Source: Lysobacter antibioticus
GTDB taxonomy: Bacteria; Pseudomonadota; Gammaproteobacteria; Xanthomonadales; Xanthomonadaceae
Direction of reading: 5' to 3'
Length of the DNA: 32,870 nt
NCBI RefSeq assembly: GCF_001442535.1
Contig: NZ_CP013141.1
Span: forward strand, 5,248,253-5,281,122
Part shown: positions 11,599-18,386 of the stretch, in pieces
Layout of the letters: every line of letters begins with the position of its first letter
Position numbering within the stretch: position 1 is the stretch's first letter
Notes under the pieces: generated by a model
What the model was told of the DNA's origin: nothing
Seen by the model: only the letters and a program-made list of their open reading frames with translations
Databases searched by the model: none
Program-made: the position numbers and the translations under genes

Positions 11599-13881
11599 AT
11601 GATCAGCGTCACCCATCTCGGCTTCCCGCGCATAGGCGCGCGGCGCGAGCTCAAGCTGGCCCTGGAATCGTTCTGGAAAGGCGACACGCCGGCCCAGGCG
11701 CTGCACGACACCGCCCACGGCCTGCGCGAACGCCATTGGCAACTGGCGCGCCAAGCCGGCGCCGACGTCGTGCCGTGCAACGATTTCTCCCTCTACGACC
11801 ACGTCCTCGATACCGCCGTGTTGTTCGACGCGATCCCCGCGCCGTACCGCGAGGTCTACGACGAAAACCCGCTGACCGGGTACTTCGCCCTCGCCCGCGG
11901 CCTGCAGGACGGCCGTCGCGATCTGCACGCGCTCGAGATGACCAAGTGGTTCGACACCAACTACCACTATCTGGTGCCGCAGTTCGAGCGCGACCAGCGT
12001 TTCGTTCTGCGCGGCGACAAGCCGCTGGCCGAACTGGCCCAGGCGCGCGCGCTCGGCATCCAGGCGCGGCCGGTGCTGCTTGGCCCGGTGTCCTTCCTCA
12101 AGCTCGGCAAGCGCAGCGACGGCGGCGATCCGCGCGAGCTGCTCGATGCCCTGCTGCCGGCCTATGCCGAGTTGCTCGGCAAGCTCAAGGCCGCGGGCGC
12201 CGACTGGGTCCAGCTCGATGAGCCGGCCCTGGTGCTCGACCTCGACGACGACGATCGCGACGCCTATCGCCGCGCTTATGCGGCCCTGGCCGAAGCCGAC
12301 GCGCCACAGCGCCTGCTGACCACGTATTTCGGTGGCCTCGGCGACAACGCCGCCCTCGCCGCGCGCCTGCCGGTGCAAGGTCTGCACGTCGACCTGGTGC
12401 GCGCGCCGCAGCAGTTGGAAAGCGTGCTGCCACTGTTGCCGGACGACCGCGTCCTCAGCCTCGGCGTGGTCGACGGCCGCAACATCTGGCGCGCCGATCT
12501 CGACGCCGCGCTGAGCCTGGCGCGTCGCGCCGGCGATCGCGCGCACTGGCTGGCGCCGTCGTGCTCGCTGTTGCACGTGCCAACCGACCTGGAGCTGGAG
12601 CGCAAGCTGCCCGCGCCGCTGCGTCACTGGATGGCCTACGCGCGGCAGAAGATCGAGGAACTGCGCCTGCTCGCCGACGCTCTCACCGGCAGCGCCGACG
12701 CCAACCGCGACCTCGCCACCGCCGCCAGCGCGCGCGCCGCGCGCCTGGCCTCGCCGTTGTTGCGCAATGCCGAGGTGCGCAAGCGCCTGGCCGCGGTCGA
12801 ACCGGCGATGACCCGGCGCGCCTCGCCCTATCCGCAACGCGCGAAGGTGCAGGCGCAGCGCCTCGGCCTGCCGCTGTTCCCGACCACCACCATCGGCTCG
12901 TTCCCGCAGACCGCCGAAGTGCGGCGCGCGCGCGCCGAGCACAAGGCCGGCAAGATCGACGACGCCGCCTACCGGACCTTCCTGGAGAACGAGACCAAGC
13001 TGTGCCTGCGCGAGCAGGAAGCGCTGGGCATCGACGTGCTGGTGCACGGCGAGTTCGAGCGCAACGACATGGTCGAGTACTTCGGCGAGCAGCTCGACGG
13101 TTTCGCCTTCACCGCCCACGGCTGGGTGCAGAGCTACGGCTCGCGCTGTGTCAAGCCGCCGGTGCTGTTCGGCGACGTGGTCCGCCCGCAGGCGATGACC
13201 GTCGACTGGACCCGTTACGCGCAGGCGCAGACGCAACGGCCGGTCAAAGGCATGCTGACCGGACCGGTGACTATCCTGCAGTGGTCGTTCGTGCGCGACG
13301 ATCAGCCGCGCGCCGACAGCTGCCGCCAGATCGCCCTGGCCTTGCGCCAGGAAGTGCTCGACCTGGAAGCGGCCGGTATCGCCATCGTCCAGATCGACGA
13401 ACCGGCCCTGCGCGAAGGCCTGCCGCTGCGTCGCGCCGACTGGCCGGCCTACCTGAGCTGGGCCGGCGAAAGCTTCCGCCTCGCCGCCAGCGGCGTCGGC
13501 GATGCGACCCAGATCCACACCCACATGTGCTACGCCGAGTTCAACGACATCATCGAGGCGGTGGCCGCGCTCGACGCCGACGTGATCTCGATCGAGACCT
13601 CGCGCTCGCGCATGGAGTTGCTGGATGCGTTCGTGCGCTATCGCTATCCGAACGGCATCGGCCCGGGCGTCTACGACATCCATTCGCCGCGCGTGCCCAG
13701 CGAGACCGAAATGCGCGACTTGCTCGACAAGGCTCTGGATGTGTTGGAGCCGGCGCAGTTGTGGGTCAACCCGGACTGCGGCCTGAAGACCCGCGGTTGG
13801 CCGGAAGTGCGCTCGGCCCTGCGGGCGATGGTGCAGTCGGCGCGCGGCCTGCGCGAGCAGGTCGCCGCCGAAGTCGACTGA
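11599..13881 (+). CDS. metE: Cobalamin-independent methionine synthase (5-methyltetrahydropteroyltriglutamate-homocysteine methyltransferase)
   Basis: Transfers the methyl group of methyl-tetrahydrofolate to homocysteine to make methionine, using zinc and no B12. The 760-residue protein has the two-barrel layout: an N-terminal barrel starting MISVTHLGFPRIGARRELK and a C-terminal barrel starting PLFPTTTIGSFPQTAEVRRAR. Zinc ligands are visible as H642 and C644 (HTHMCY), E666 (ISIETSRS) and C727 (NPDCGLKTR), one residue off E. coli numbering. The open frame extends upstream into the riboswitch, but family length and N-terminal conservation fix the start at 11599. Expression is expected to fall when cobalamin is present. 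The gene stands alone. Confidence 0.97.
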   Translation: MISVTHLGFPRIGARRELKLALESFWKGDTPAQALHDTAHGLRERHWQLARQAGADVVPCNDFSLYDHVLDTAVLFDAIPAPYREVYDENPLTGYFALARGLQDGRRDLHALEMTKWFDTNYHYLVPQFERDQRFVLRGDKPLAELAQARALGIQARPVLLGPVSFLKLGKRSDGGDPRELLDALLPAYAELLGKLKAAGADWVQLDEPALVLDLDDDDRDAYRRAYAALAEADAPQRLLTTYFGGLGDNAALAARLPVQGLHVDLVRAPQQLESVLPLLPDDRVLSLGVVDGRNIWRADLDAALSLARRAGDRAHWLAPSCSLLHVPTDLELERKLPAPLRHWMAYARQKIEELRLLADALTGSADANRDLATAASARAARLASPLLRNAEVRKRLAAVEPAMTRRASPYPQRAKVQAQRLGLPLFPTTTIGSFPQTAEVRRARAEHKAGKIDDAAYRTFLENETKLCLREQEALGIDVLVHGEFERNDMVEYFGEQLDGFAFTAHGWVQSYGSRCVKPPVLFGDVVRPQAMTVDWTRYAQAQTQRPVKGMLTGPVTILQWSFVRDDQPRADSCRQIALALRQEVLDLEAAGIAIVQIDEPALREGLPLRRADWPAYLSWAGESFRLAASGVGDATQIHTHMCYAEFNDIIEAVAALDADVISIETSRSRMELLDAFVRYRYPNGIGPGVYDIHSPRVPSETEMRDLLDKALDVLEPAQLWVNPDCGLKTRGWPEVRSALRAMVQSARGLREQVAAEVD

Positions 13882-13911
13882 GCGCAGCAGTCGATTGAGC
13901 TGAGCACGAAC

Positions 13912-13964
13912 CGTCGGCGGCGCGCGCGCCGCCGACGATGCCCCTTCCGGACTACGGAAGGGGC
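13912..13964. terminator. Double hairpin between metE and the peptide operon
   Basis: A perfect 26-base palindrome with a GCGCGCGC centre (13912-13937) is followed by the stem GCCCCTTCCG / CGGAAGGGGC with loop GACTA (13940-13964). Neither has a long U-run, so intrinsic termination would be weak. Its place between two convergent transcripts makes a bidirectional terminator the best guess. Confidence 0.55.
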
Positions 13965-13971
13965 GCTTGCC

Positions 13972-14118
13972 TTACATCACGTCGTAGGCCAGCACGTTCC
14001 ACTGCTCCGGCTGGCCGGAGCTTTCCACCGAGCGCACGATCGCGCCGACGTCGGCGCCGGACACGCTGAACGGTGCGACTTCGTAATCCAGATCCTGGAT
14101 TTGCAGACTGCCTTCCAT
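13972..14118 (-). CDS. 48-residue peptide, candidate substrate or precursor of the adjacent cupin-like enzyme pair
   Basis: A complete small gene: ATG at 14118, stop at 13972-13974. It is preceded by AGGAG at 7 bases' spacing, one of the best ribosome binding sites in the window. The peptide begins MEGSLQIQDLDYEVAPFSVS and ends SSGQPEQWNVLAYDVM. It is acidic, has no cysteine, no signal peptide and no transmembrane helix. A polar first part followed by an aromatic Trp/Asn/Tyr/Asp-containing tail resembles a leader-core layout. It is the last gene of a three-gene minus-strand set, 63 bases after the enzyme gene. I recognise no family. It could be a modified (RiPP-like) precursor or a small structural partner. 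Confidence 0.7.
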   Translation of the reverse strand: MEGSLQIQDLDYEVAPFSVSGADVGAIVRSVESSGQPEQWNVLAYDVM

Positions 14119-14152
14119 AGAGTTGCTCCTGATTCGCCGGCCCGATGACATC

Positions 14153-14179
14153 CCGCGGCGCGCCGGCGACGCCGCGCGG
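14153..14179 (-). promoter_or_regulatory. GC-rich hairpin between enzyme and peptide genes
   Basis: GCGGCG (14155-14160) pairs with CGCCGC (14170-14175) and can extend a few bases each side. It lies directly after the stop codon of the upstream gene and before the peptide ribosome binding site. Such a hairpin could separate expression levels within an operon; this is inference. Confidence 0.35.
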
Positions 14180-14181
14180 AT

Positions 14182-15093
14182 TCATTGCAGCGTCTGCAGC
14201 ACCTTGCTCGCATGATCGCGGACCATCGCGCAATCGTCGGCGTACAAGCGCTCGAGCGCGCCGCGATAAGCGTCCTGGTCGTCGCGCAGGCCGTCCAGGC
14301 ACATCAGGCGCATGCGCGGCGGCAGCAGCGTCGAGTCGACTACATCGGCGAACAGCGGCGTGAGTTCGTCGCCGCCGACCAACACCGCCATTTCCGCCAG
14401 CATCGACAAGCGGCTGTGGATGCTCGCCGAGGTGTAACTGAGGATGCGCGCGCGCTCTTCCCCGAATTCCTGCTCGAACACGAAGTTGTACTGGCACTTG
14501 GCGATCTGGCTTTGGTTGTTGAACAGCACGTTCAACGAGATCGACAGCTCGTCCGGCGGCGCCTGCCGGTGCACGTCGCGGTGGGCGCGGTAGAGCATGA
14601 TCTTGCCCTTGGGCAGGGTCGTGACCTCCGAATCCAGGATGCGCGCGCTGTCGCCGATGGCGCCGGTCAACTCGGCCGGGTCGATCTCGGCGATGTGGGT
14701 GCGGTAGCCCGAGCCGAAATAGCCGACGGTGAGGAAATGGAAGTTGTGGTCGTGGGCGGTGTCGTACGAGTACGCGCGCTCCTCGTTCTTGCGCAAGGCG
14801 CCGGTCTGCTTCAGCGGCGACCACACGTTGGCGCGGATCATCACGTGCTTGCGCCGCGCGATCACGTAGCACTGCGGGGCGACGAACGGCGGCGGCTCGC
14901 CGTCGAGGATCGAGCGCAGCGACCGCGCCATGGTGCGCGCGACCAGGGCCGGGTCGTTGGCGTAGGCGGCGAGCACCGGCGCGGCTTCGGCGATGCTGTC
15001 CGGGTCGAGCGTATCGACCCGGCTGAAGATGAAATCGAACAGCTCTTCTTCGCTGGCCACCGTGGTCGCGGCGGCATTCAAGGTGTAGGCCAT
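14182..15093 (-). CDS. Cupin-like protein with histidine-rich site and HEAT-like C-terminal helices
   Basis: I do not recognise a named family. The 303-residue protein has an alpha-helical N-terminal part (about 1-70) and a beta-rich middle (about 75-210). The middle holds H114, H116 and H119 (HDHNFHF) followed by GYFGSGYRTHIAEID, then LPKGKIMLYRAHRDVHR with H171 and H175 and SISLNVLFNNQ. That order is the pattern of a double-stranded beta-helix (cupin) metal site. The last 90 residues are helical with HEAT-like spacing (LPPRMRLMCLDGLRDD, AMVRDHASKVLQTL). The ATG at 15093 has an AGGA site and lies 17 bases after its paralogue; the frame is open much further upstream but overlaps that gene. 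A metal-dependent (possibly Fe) oxygenase acting on the adjacent peptide is the working idea; the chemistry is not shown. Confidence 0.75.
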   Translation of the reverse strand: MAYTLNAAATTVASEEELFDFIFSRVDTLDPDSIAEAAPVLAAYANDPALVARTMARSLRSILDGEPPPFVAPQCYVIARRKHVMIRANVWSPLKQTGALRKNEERAYSYDTAHDHNFHFLTVGYFGSGYRTHIAEIDPAELTGAIGDSARILDSEVTTLPKGKIMLYRAHRDVHRQAPPDELSISLNVLFNNQSQIAKCQYNFVFEQEFGEERARILSYTSASIHSRLSMLAEMAVLVGGDELTPLFADVVDSTLLPPRMRLMCLDGLRDDQDAYRGALERLYADDCAMVRDHASKVLQTLQ

Positions 15094-15110
15094 GGCGTTG
15101 TCCTTAGCGG

Positions 15111-15974
15111 TCAGGCGGTCGGGGCCAGGGCGGCGAGCGAACGCGTCGCGGCCCTGCGGATGTCGTCGTGCTCGTCGTCGACGGCATCGCGTAGACGCTC
15201 CAGCGCGGCCTGCGGGTCGACCTTGCCGAGCAGTTGAATGGCCGACCAGCGCACGAAATGGCGCGGGTGCCGGCTCAGTTCGAGCAAGGCCTGCGGTGCC
15301 TGCTCCGCGTCGATGGTGGCCAGGGTCTGGCCGATGCAGACCAGTTCGGAATCGCTCAGGCGCGCCGAAATGCAGCTGTCGGCGCGCAGCGTCTCGGGGT
15401 CGAAGCGCCATTGCAGATCGACCGCGCTTTGCGAGAGCAACAACACCACGATGGTCGGTTGCCGCACGTCGACCTTGAACGCGGCGTCGTCCACGCCCAG
15501 CGCCGCGGCCTCGCCGTCGGCCAGCTCGATGCGGCGGTTGAGCTGCACGCTCTGCTCGCGCTCGAAGTAAGCGTTGCGGAAGCTCTCGCCGGTGGCGTAG
15601 GTGCTCAGCTCGATGGCGCCGGCGGCGACGCCGATGCAGGCGTACTGCGAGAGGGTGAAGATGCCGCTGGACGAGCTGAAATAGCGCGACAGGTGCAGCG
15701 ACCAGCCTTCGCCCGACATCAGGAACACGCCGTGCCGGCTCCACAGGCCGCCGCGGTTCCAGTTTTCCCACAGCAGCGCCTGTTCGCCGTCGCCGAGCAG
15801 GTCCGACAGCTCCTGACGCAAGCGCGCGGCGATCGCGCCCGATTGCAGCAGGGTCTGCAAGTCCGCCTGCATATCGACGATGCCGGCGATGCCGCGCTCG
15901 CCGACGCGCCGGTCGACGGCGTCCTTGAAGCGCGCGAATCTGGAATCGGCTAAAGAGCGCGATTGTGCATCCAT
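15111..15974 (-). CDS. Paralogue of the cupin-like protein lacking the histidines, with clear HEAT repeat
   Basis: The 287-residue protein has the same layout as the next gene: helical N-terminus (about 1-65), beta-rich middle (about 78-210), helical end. The C-terminus is clearly HEAT-like (HFVRWSAIQLLGKVDPQAAL, then DDIRRAATRSLAAL). Aligned by eye, the HDHNFHFLT of the partner corresponds to SSSSGIFTL here (about 101-109), and the later H..VH site corresponds to VDDAAFKVD (about 161-169). The metal ligands are therefore absent, suggesting a non-catalytic binding partner. The ATG at 15974 is supported by AAGGAAGGA upstream. It is the first gene of the three-gene set, whose promoter should lie in 15975-16280. 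No known family is recognised beyond HEAT. Confidence 0.75.
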   Translation of the reverse strand: MDAQSRSLADSRFARFKDAVDRRVGERGIAGIVDMQADLQTLLQSGAIAARLRQELSDLLGDGEQALLWENWNRGGLWSRHGVFLMSGEGWSLHLSRYFSSSSGIFTLSQYACIGVAAGAIELSTYATGESFRNAYFEREQSVQLNRRIELADGEAAALGVDDAAFKVDVRQPTIVVLLLSQSAVDLQWRFDPETLRADSCISARLSDSELVCIGQTLATIDAEQAPQALLELSRHPRHFVRWSAIQLLGKVDPQAALERLRDAVDDEHDDIRRAATRSLAALAPTA

Positions 15975-16419
15975 GCATCCTTCCTTGAGTTTTGGGTTCG
16001 AACCAGCGAAACCTTCCGCGTCCTGCGGCCGCCGTCGCCCATCCATTCGGACTGGCCACGGCCTGACGACGGTTGCGCGTCGCGGAGGATCGTGGTCCAA
16101 CCGCTCTCCGGACCACGTGTTTCGATCCTAACGACAAGCCGTCGCAAACGCAGCGATGCGGGGGCGACGCCGGTCACAACTCGACCGATGCATGGATCGT
16201 CGCGAACCGATGCGGCATCGCTACGTAATTACCCCTTCATTCAGGCCACCTCGTTCAGGGCCGGCAAGCTACGAATCGTTCCCCTTTGCAAAAAGGGGAT
16301 GGGGGATTTACTCCCCCGGCAAGACGAGGCCATACACGCCAAACCCGCGAGATCAGAATGGCCCCAGCTCTCGCCGCTACGACCTGCCTCCGCCATCGCC
16401 GCTACAAACCCCGCCCAAC
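15975..16419. other. Intergenic region with hairpin repeat
   Basis: About 445 bases without a convincing gene. It must contain the promoter of the peptide operon (minus strand). Two adjacent hairpins lie at 16281-16298 (CCCCTTT/AAAGGGG) and 16301-16317 (GGGGGA/TCCCCC), in an AT-richer patch. They resemble dispersed intergenic repeats of Lysobacter-type genomes. Open frames crossing this region lack ribosome binding sites. Confidence 0.5.
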
Positions 16420-16447
16420 AAAAAAGCCCCGCATTCGCGGGGCTTTT
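16420..16447 (-). terminator. Rho-independent terminator of gap
   Basis: The stem AAAAGCCCCGC / GCGGGGCTTTT with loop ATTC is followed on the minus strand by a run of six T. It ends 21 bases after the gap stop codon. Textbook shape. Confidence 0.92.
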
Positions 16448-16468
16448 CGTCGACCAGGAGACCGCCGC

Positions 16469-17503
<1,035 letters not shown>

Positions 17504-17762: not shown

Positions 17763-18386
17763 ATGAATCAGCGACTGATCGGCGGCGTCCTCGCCGCCAC
17801 CCTGGCCTGCGCGGCCCAGCCCGCCCTCGCCCAGCAGACCGGCAACTTCACCCTGGGTATCGGCGCTCACCAGGTCAATCCGAAGTCCGACAACGGCAGC
17901 GTGCTGGGCGGAGCGGCCGAGCTGGAAATCGGCGACGACGCCCAGCCCACCATCACCTTCGAGTACTTCATCCGCGACAACCTCGGCATCGAGGTGCTGG
18001 CGGCCGCGCCGTTCAAGCACGACATCGATATCAAGGGCGTCGGCAAGGTGGGCACGACCAAGCACCTGCCGCCGACGTTCTCGCTGCAGTACCACTGGAA
18101 CAGCCGCGGCGTGGTCTCGCCCTTCGTCGGCCTGGGCGTCAACTACACGACCTTCTTCAGCGAGAAGACCACCGGCGCGCTGCGCGGCACCCGCCTCAAG
18201 CTCGACGACTCGGTCGGCGTGGCGGCCCATGTCGGCGTCGACTTCATCCTGACCGAACGCAGCTCGATCCGCGTGGATGCGCGCTGGATGGACATCCAGA
18301 CCGACGTCGAGCTGAACGACCAGAAGATCGGCAAGGCCACCATCGACCCGACCGTGTTCGGTCTGGCCTACGTGATGAAGTTCTGA
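17763..18386 (+). CDS. ompW: OmpW-family outer-membrane protein
   Basis: A small eight-stranded outer-membrane beta-barrel; relatives pass small hydrophobic molecules. The 207-residue precursor has a signal peptide (about 1-23, cleavage near ALAQQ), then alternating strands with FTLGIGAHQVNPKSDNG, TFEYFIRDNLGIEVLAAAPFKHDI, SLQYHW and VSPFVGLGVNYTTFF. The C-terminal strand ends in a phenylalanine (GLAYVMKF), the assembly signal for the BAM complex. The start at 17763 is chosen for the signal peptide and the AAGGA context; the frame is open further upstream. Single gene, followed by a long hairpin. Confidence 0.92.
   Translation: MNQRLIGGVLAATLACAAQPALAQQTGNFTLGIGAHQVNPKSDNGSVLGGAAELEIGDDAQPTITFEYFIRDNLGIEVLAAAPFKHDIDIKGVGKVGTTKHLPPTFSLQYHWNSRGVVSPFVGLGVNYTTFFSEKTTGALRGTRLKLDDSVGVAAHVGVDFILTERSSIRVDARWMDIQTDVELNDQKIGKATIDPTVFGLAYVMKF

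Follow-up and report, generated by a model that had tools for sequence, protein, structure and literature searches.

Thiol dioxygenases oxidize cysteine, small thiols, and the N-terminal cysteine of proteins, the last being the substrate of PCO and ADO. They employ a catalytic Ser-His-Tyr triad, and HxH...H is the histidine pattern of the three-His iron site, as opposed to the HxD/E...H metal motif of 2-oxoglutarate–dependent cupin and JmjC hydroxylases. Iron enzymes and cupins are also described in RiPP clusters. MNIOs are multinuclear iron enzymes that used to be called DUF692. In the biphenomycin-type pbs cluster, the MNIO PbsC has a partner protein, PbsD, which contains a RiPP recognition element (PMC12257519). 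PbsQ, a JmjC-related cupin-type hydroxylase, is likewise found in a RiPP cluster (PMC12257519), and cupin-4 proteins occur with NHLP-domain clusters (PMC9426513).

The locus analyzed here lies in a 32,870-nucleotide stretch of the Lysobacter antibioticus genome, referred to in full as the window, and contains genes for two proteins, A and B, and a short peptide. Like the PbsC/PbsD loci (PMC12257519), it combines a short precursor-like gene with a candidate nonheme iron enzyme (B) and a partner (A), and, as with PbsQ (PMC12257519) and cupin-4 (PMC9426513), a cupin protein appears in what would be a peptide-modifying context. It is unlike PbsC/PbsD in that its partner is probably a degenerate copy of the enzyme and carries HEAT repeats, and unlike the JmjC-related PbsQ in that B has an HxH motif and thiol dioxygenases as its structural neighbors. 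PbsC–PbsD and PbsQ are functional analogues, not relatives. In predicted fold, B (residues 8–225) and A (residues 9–204) resemble the cysteine, 3-mercaptopropionate, and mercaptosuccinate dioxygenases (PF05995); unlike those enzymes, they have a HEAT-like tail, a probably dead paralogue gene, and an accompanying peptide gene whose product, in most of the peptides collected here, lacks cysteine. No description of an A–B–peptide system was found in the open-licence literature searched, and the best reading of the locus type is an undescribed RiPP-like locus.

The three genes are consecutive on one strand, with gaps of 17 nt between A and B and 63 nt between B and the peptide gene. A plausible, purine-rich ribosome-binding site precedes each of the three starts, that of the peptide gene being a strong AGGAG (Table 1), all as the preliminary description of this DNA had stated. 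Two strong hairpins start directly 3′ of the peptide stop codon and probably mark the end of the operon, facing metE. They lack a T-run and thus do not constitute a consensus intrinsic terminator; promoter and terminator scans of the locus called none. The flanking genes, named by eye, are metE, which is convergent with the locus, and gapA, which lies upstream of A and shares its strand. The source genome, a single contig of 5.77 Mb, encodes one copy of B, which shares 98% identity with a protein encoded by a locus of L. antibioticus 13-6. Comparison of the locus with plasmids gave one partial match and comparison with phages gave no match.

Table 1. Features of the A–B–peptide locus, in positions of the window
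Feature	Positions	Strand	Basis
Gene A, 287 aa; probable degenerate paralogue with thiol-dioxygenase fold, plus HEAT repeats	15111..15974	-	Model, profile comparison
Gene B, 303 aa; candidate three-His iron oxygenase plus HEAT-like helices	14182..15093	-	Predicted model, conservation
Precursor-like peptide gene, 48 aa	13972..14118	-	Profile ranking, codon changes
AGGAG ribosome-binding site of the peptide gene	14126..14130	-	Sequence
Leader-like motif IQDLDYEV, peptide residues 7–14	14077..14100	-	Alignments with relatives' peptides
His-Asp-His of B (H114-D115-H116), presumed iron ligands	14746..14754	-	Invariance; nonsignificant profile alignment
H175 of B, presumed third iron ligand	14569..14571	-	Invariance and known HxH...H pattern
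Two strong hairpins, stems 13940–13964 and 13910–13939	13910..13964	-	z -5.12

B is matched by 616 proteins at E ≤ 1e-3. The exact pattern HDHNFxFLT was found in 387 stretches of GTDB representative genomes, 383 of which are relatives. For the analyses below we used 100 distinct loci, comprising the best 80 of these 383 relatives and 20 loci from genomes of the window's family; L082, L084, L085, and L093 were left out as second records of loci already counted. The best 80 are mostly from sphingomonads, and the sample is therefore skewed.

The predicted models of the two proteins (pLDDT 87 and 93) each contain a thiol-dioxygenase-type cupin followed by a HEAT-like C-terminal tail. The layout proposed earlier for both proteins, with a helical start, a β-rich middle, and a HEAT-like end, agrees with these models, as does the cupin-like fold, whose absence was to have counted against the preliminary description. 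The 50 VIA matches listed for B are all thiol dioxygenases. By Foldseek alone, other cupins (phosphoglucose isomerase, the putative asparaginyl hydroxylase 1vrb, and NO66) also rank high, no more than about two orders of magnitude behind the top hit. At the sequence level, neither P0002 (at E ≤ 1) nor any of 34 relatives (at E ≤ 0.1) matched PF05995 in Pfam, and the cupin parts of A and B had nothing significant in Pfam, NCBIfam, PADLOC, or PHROGs. At E < 0.1, a search of PDB sequences with the B profile returned HEAT-type matches and no others, and a search with B alone gave a single chance match (E 0.44). When B was compared by hhalign with a PF05995 profile of 17 sequences, from the 17 of 30 loci that passed the ORF filter, the result was not significant (E 0.29); this nonsignificant alignment pairs the HDH of B with the HDH of PF05995, along with the preceding Trp and an SL-x-I stretch, and does not pair H175 with the PF05995 third histidine.

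In an alignment of 104 rows, namely 103 B-like ORFs from the 100 distinct loci and the B of the window, one row is gapped at the columns concerned, and in all 103 rows with a residue, H114, H116, H175, Q177, G129, Y130, and W91 are invariant. R87 and N188 are each found in 102 of the 103, and D115 in 98, the other five having Asn. The view that the histidine-bearing protein is the candidate metalloenzyme is thus strengthened, and from its model and its conserved residues we regard B as a candidate three-His iron oxygenase. The PF05995 sequences compared contain an SLHIY-type stretch; opposite it, in a register taken from the nonsignificant alignment, B has Ser/Thr186, Asn188 in place of the His, and, at position 190 in place of the Tyr, Met (68 rows), Leu (17), Ile (10), or Val (8), never Tyr. 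In this register, B apparently has no counterpart of the Tyr that takes part in thiol dioxygenase catalysis.

In the A alignment, His accounts for at most 48% of any column that holds more than 60 residues, and conservation is highest at an Arg-Trp pair within the HEAT part. Because it has no conserved histidine, A is probably a pseudoenzyme. Its C-terminal HEAT repeats match Pfam HEAT_2 (residues 216–281), HEAT-type models being its only significant matches in Pfam, NCBIfam, PADLOC, and PHROGs, and its comparison with the PF05995 profile was not significant (E 0.091). A single-sequence search with A found five relatives. BLASTP gave no match between A and B, and profile comparison related them with E 9.5e-10 over 255 columns, mostly in the HEAT part. 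When the profiles were split, the HEAT parts matched with E 2.3e-8 and the cupin parts with P 0.0017, the latter with a score of 27.0, whereas none of 40 column shuffles scored above 16.7. The models of A and B also share the same best structural matches. The profile kinship, together with the shared fold, indicates that A is probably a catalytically dead paralogue of B and its noncatalytic partner. The paralogy put forward in the preliminary description is upheld, with the kinship being remote, and the partner role is upheld as a probable one.

The peptide genes have a recognizable common element. Alignment of the peptides reveals, near the N terminus, the pattern hydrophobic-x-x-L-[D/E]-x-x-V, with a variable last position among relatives: it reads LDDLEVNV in L089, IEDLENDI in L004, IPTLDFDV in L080, and LPDLDTLT in sphingomonads, compared with the leader-like motif of the window's peptide (Table 1). 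The part that follows the motif differs, being of the VGGPVC type, the DDTIVVIATIVYET type, or, in the window, APFSVSGADVGAIVRSVESSGQPEQWNVLAYDVM. Judged from the alignments, the peptides thus appear to join a conserved leader to a variable C-terminal part, as is expected of RiPP precursors. In a sister Lysobacter lineage the peptide ends ...SSGDPELWVALG, and the aromatic tail is therefore not conserved beyond the Trp. Of the short peptide with an aromatic tail that had been described, the frame is real and the N-terminal motif, not the tail, is the conserved element. The frame is kept in Lysobacter relatives; over the first 40 codons, 12 of the 19 differences from the peptide gene of L003 fall in third positions, and the changed codons comprise 9 synonymous and 8 nonsynonymous ones. 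In addition, among the 264 small ORFs in the window, that of the 48-residue peptide scores best (E 0.0041, runner-up 5.3) with a profile of 28 diverse peptides that were hand-picked for the motif after the window's peptide was known, a profile that excludes this peptide and the closest Lysobacter loci and includes three peptides of L. selenitireducens, which belongs to another GTDB genus. A chance ORF was rejected on the basis of this profile rank and the conservation of the frame in relatives. Searches of Pfam, NCBIfam, PADLOC, and PHROGs with the window's peptide gave nothing significant, and NCBIfam gave no match for six relatives' peptides.

The C-terminal parts are diverse in composition. 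The window encodes an acidic peptide without strong hydrophobicity, many relatives' peptides have hydrophobic C-terminal parts, and by eye no candidate residue is common to all C-terminal parts in the alignments. Of the 55 distinct training peptides, 39 contain no cysteine, and the same is true of 31 of the 32 in the sphingomonad set, of the window's peptide, and of those of its Lysobacter relatives. A cysteine stands in a VGGPxC context in L004, L060, and L089, and the L063 peptide has two near its C terminus. In Dyella, peptides of 71–88 aa adjoin the A–B pairs (L054, 3986–4960, and L077); they contain glycine-valine runs followed by a proline- or glycine-rich tail.

The genes are regularly found together. 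In 96 of the 100 distinct loci, B has an A-like neighbor on its own strand at a distance of no more than 400 nt, the exceptions being L033, L100, L101, and L105; the order is A before B in all but one of the 96. We searched 10,955 ORFs of 25–110 aa, taken from 81 loci and the window, with a profile built from 32 sphingomonad peptides. At E ≤ 3e-4 it matched 22 held-out loci, in 21 of which the match lies 1,112–1,250 nt upstream of the B start, the remaining one being L022, for which there is no B call. With both profiles and training loci included, 73 of the 100 loci have an adjacent peptide match at E < 0.01, and 79 do at E < 1; for the 50 loci outside both training sets, the counts are 24 and 30, respectively. 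Nonadjacent matches at E < 1 numbered only 3 in 11,609 ORFs (L007, L010, and L013). A short precursor-like gene is thus a regular neighbor of the candidate modifying gene, as in RiPP loci. To the question, raised in the preliminary description, of whether a short gene always follows, the answer is that most pairs have a companion peptide, with 21 of 100 loci showing no adjacent match at E < 1. Among those 21, L007, L010, and L013 have the nonadjacent matches just named, L003 and L083 carry a 44-aa homologue of the window's peptide, L054 and L095 have candidate peptides seen by eye, and L024 is cut by a contig end; in 13, no peptide was found (L006, L008, L020, L033, L075, L091, L092, L098–L101, L104, and L105).

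The position of the peptide gene varies. It follows B in Lysobacter, Silanimonas, L089/L090, and L096, and elsewhere usually precedes A; it is upstream in L060, L067, and L081. L035 and L046 each have two tandem A–B pairs, with a peptide between them and with differing peptides, one of the VGGPVC type and two LPxLDxEV, and these tandem pairs constitute a natural test of leader specificity. In Nevskia-type loci, a distance of ∼2.5 kb separates B from the peptide gene on its downstream side (L007, 6862–7062; L010, 7800–7937; L013, 7522–7659), and in L007 a large opposite-strand gene of ∼690 aa lies between the two.

Export or processing genes were present in all three clusters scanned with Pfam. 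L012, from Bacteroidota, encodes a LanC-like protein (PF05147, E 1.3e-30), a C39-peptidase ABC exporter, and a MacB permease; L014 has an ABC exporter and an HlyD protein, and L080 has HlyD and ABC genes. The C39 peptidase and the LanC-like protein were found only in L012. Inspection by eye revealed no exporter or leader protease next to the three genes of the window, nor in L016 and L018, which are Erythrobacter-type loci. In two Bacteroidota loci, related proteins of ∼344 aa with no Pfam match follow B (L012, 6941–7978; L014, 4316–5347) and are possibly a third partner.

Collectively, a peptide gene with a leader-like motif, a protein of oxygenase fold that keeps its histidines throughout the family, and a nearly constant, probably dead twin point to peptide maturation, and we judge it fairly probable that B is an Fe(II)/O2 enzyme acting on the peptide, with A as its partner, in a RiPP-like maturation cassette. 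In the mechanism that we infer, the 48-residue peptide would be the substrate and its N-terminal motif the leader. B would bind iron through H114, H116, and H175 in its thiol-dioxygenase-type cupin and, with O2, would oxidize a residue in the variable C-terminal part of the peptide, while A, having lost the metal site, would form a complex with B and help to bind or position the peptide, perhaps via the HEAT tails. Because cysteine is missing from most of the training peptides, thiol oxidation is not the general chemistry, and with the catalytic Tyr seemingly replaced as well, ordinary thiol dioxygenation is unlikely; the reaction would probably not form a sulfinic acid and would be another three-His-iron oxidation. 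That B is nevertheless a true thiol dioxygenase, acting on a peptide cysteine or a small thiol, would agree with its predicted fold and with the cysteines of L004, L060, L089, and L063, yet the cysteine-free peptides of the sphingomonad set, the window, and its Lysobacter relatives, and a position 190 that is never Tyr in the register of the nonsignificant alignment, make this very improbable. Least probable of all is a 2-oxoglutarate cupin or JmjC-type Asp/Asn hydroxylase, the type envisaged in the preliminary description. Foldseek does match B to 1vrb, a putative asparaginyl hydroxylase (E 8e-5, TM 0.22–0.23), and to NO66 (E 1.8e-4, TM 0.21–0.23), the TM scores being by query length for NO66, and a cupin-type hydroxylase, PbsQ, occurs in a RiPP cluster (PMC12257519). 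However, the HxH of B, kept in every row with a residue where such hydroxylases would have HxD/E, and the 50 listed thiol dioxygenase matches leave this assignment unsupported.

A and B might also form a noncatalytic peptide-binding or sensing complex, in which the peptide would serve as a ligand, an inhibitor, or a signal, and a metal, O2, or a small molecule would be sensed at the histidine site. The lack of a common modifiable residue in the C-terminal parts, the apparent lack of an exporter beside the window's genes and in L016 and L018, and the seemingly missing catalytic Tyr are all consistent with such a complex; we nonetheless consider it unlikely, given that invariance of three histidines and several more residues is typical of catalysis and that L012, L014, and L080 contain processing or export genes. 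Those same ABC, HlyD, or MacB-type genes, along with the hydrophobic C-terminal parts of many relatives, would suit an unmodified hydrophobic bacteriocin or toxin for which A–B and the ABC genes provide immunity or export, but the acidic character of the window's peptide argues otherwise and immunity leaves the invariant histidines of B unexplained, so that we hold this to be distinctly improbable. Returning to peptide maturation by B and A, the chances seem to us evenly balanced that the system is a new peptide-modification class, defined by a heteromeric A/B oxygenase, a Tyr-less three-His site, and a nonthiol target, present in at least five phyla and with a shared place in many sphingomonads. 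If true, such an enzyme–pseudoenzyme pair with a leader-peptide gene would make modified peptides by a new route and put the three-His iron site to a new use.

By the host names in the records, the family spans five phyla. Hosts include Lysobacter, Silanimonas, Dyella, Alteromonas, many Erythrobacter-type sphingomonads, and Niveispirillum, as well as Mucilaginibacter, Dyadobacter, Hymenobacter, Flavobacterium, a Streptomyces, an acidobacterial MAG, and a Blastopirellula MAG. In whole-genome searches, 21 of 395 genomes sampled from the window's family carried B, as did 104 of 298 sampled from that of Erythrobacter sp. NAP1, which provides many test cases. Seven of the 120 listed B relatives, out of the 616, are named "transposase" (P0029, P0057, P0063, P0073, P0087, P0097, and P0106, from sphingomonads and a Lysobacter), and most of the others are unnamed or hypothetical. 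The transposase label is probably a propagated misnomer; an insertion-sequence origin was rejected, with no transposase model among the Pfam matches of 34 relatives. With such labels, annotation-based mining would miss the B family.

Flanking gene families recur among many of the sphingomonad loci, one of them being present in 42 of 81 loci, a pattern suggestive of a constant position on the chromosome. In the window, the cassette lies between gapA and metE (13881–16470). Among the genomes listed for the window's genus, 4 have B and 16 do not. In 7 of the 16 genomes without B, metE is within 1.5 kb of gapA (∼185 nt in L147), and in the other 9, metE was not seen within the stretch examined; A and B follow gapA in 3 of 3 carriers examined. 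The gapA–metE junction of the seven is thus an apparent empty site, and the cassette may be one that is gained or lost. Upstream of gapA in the window is a gene named by eye as outer-membrane-protein-like (17763–18386, plus strand), and a gene of this kind lies beside gapA in 19 of 19 congeneric genomes examined (L139–L157).
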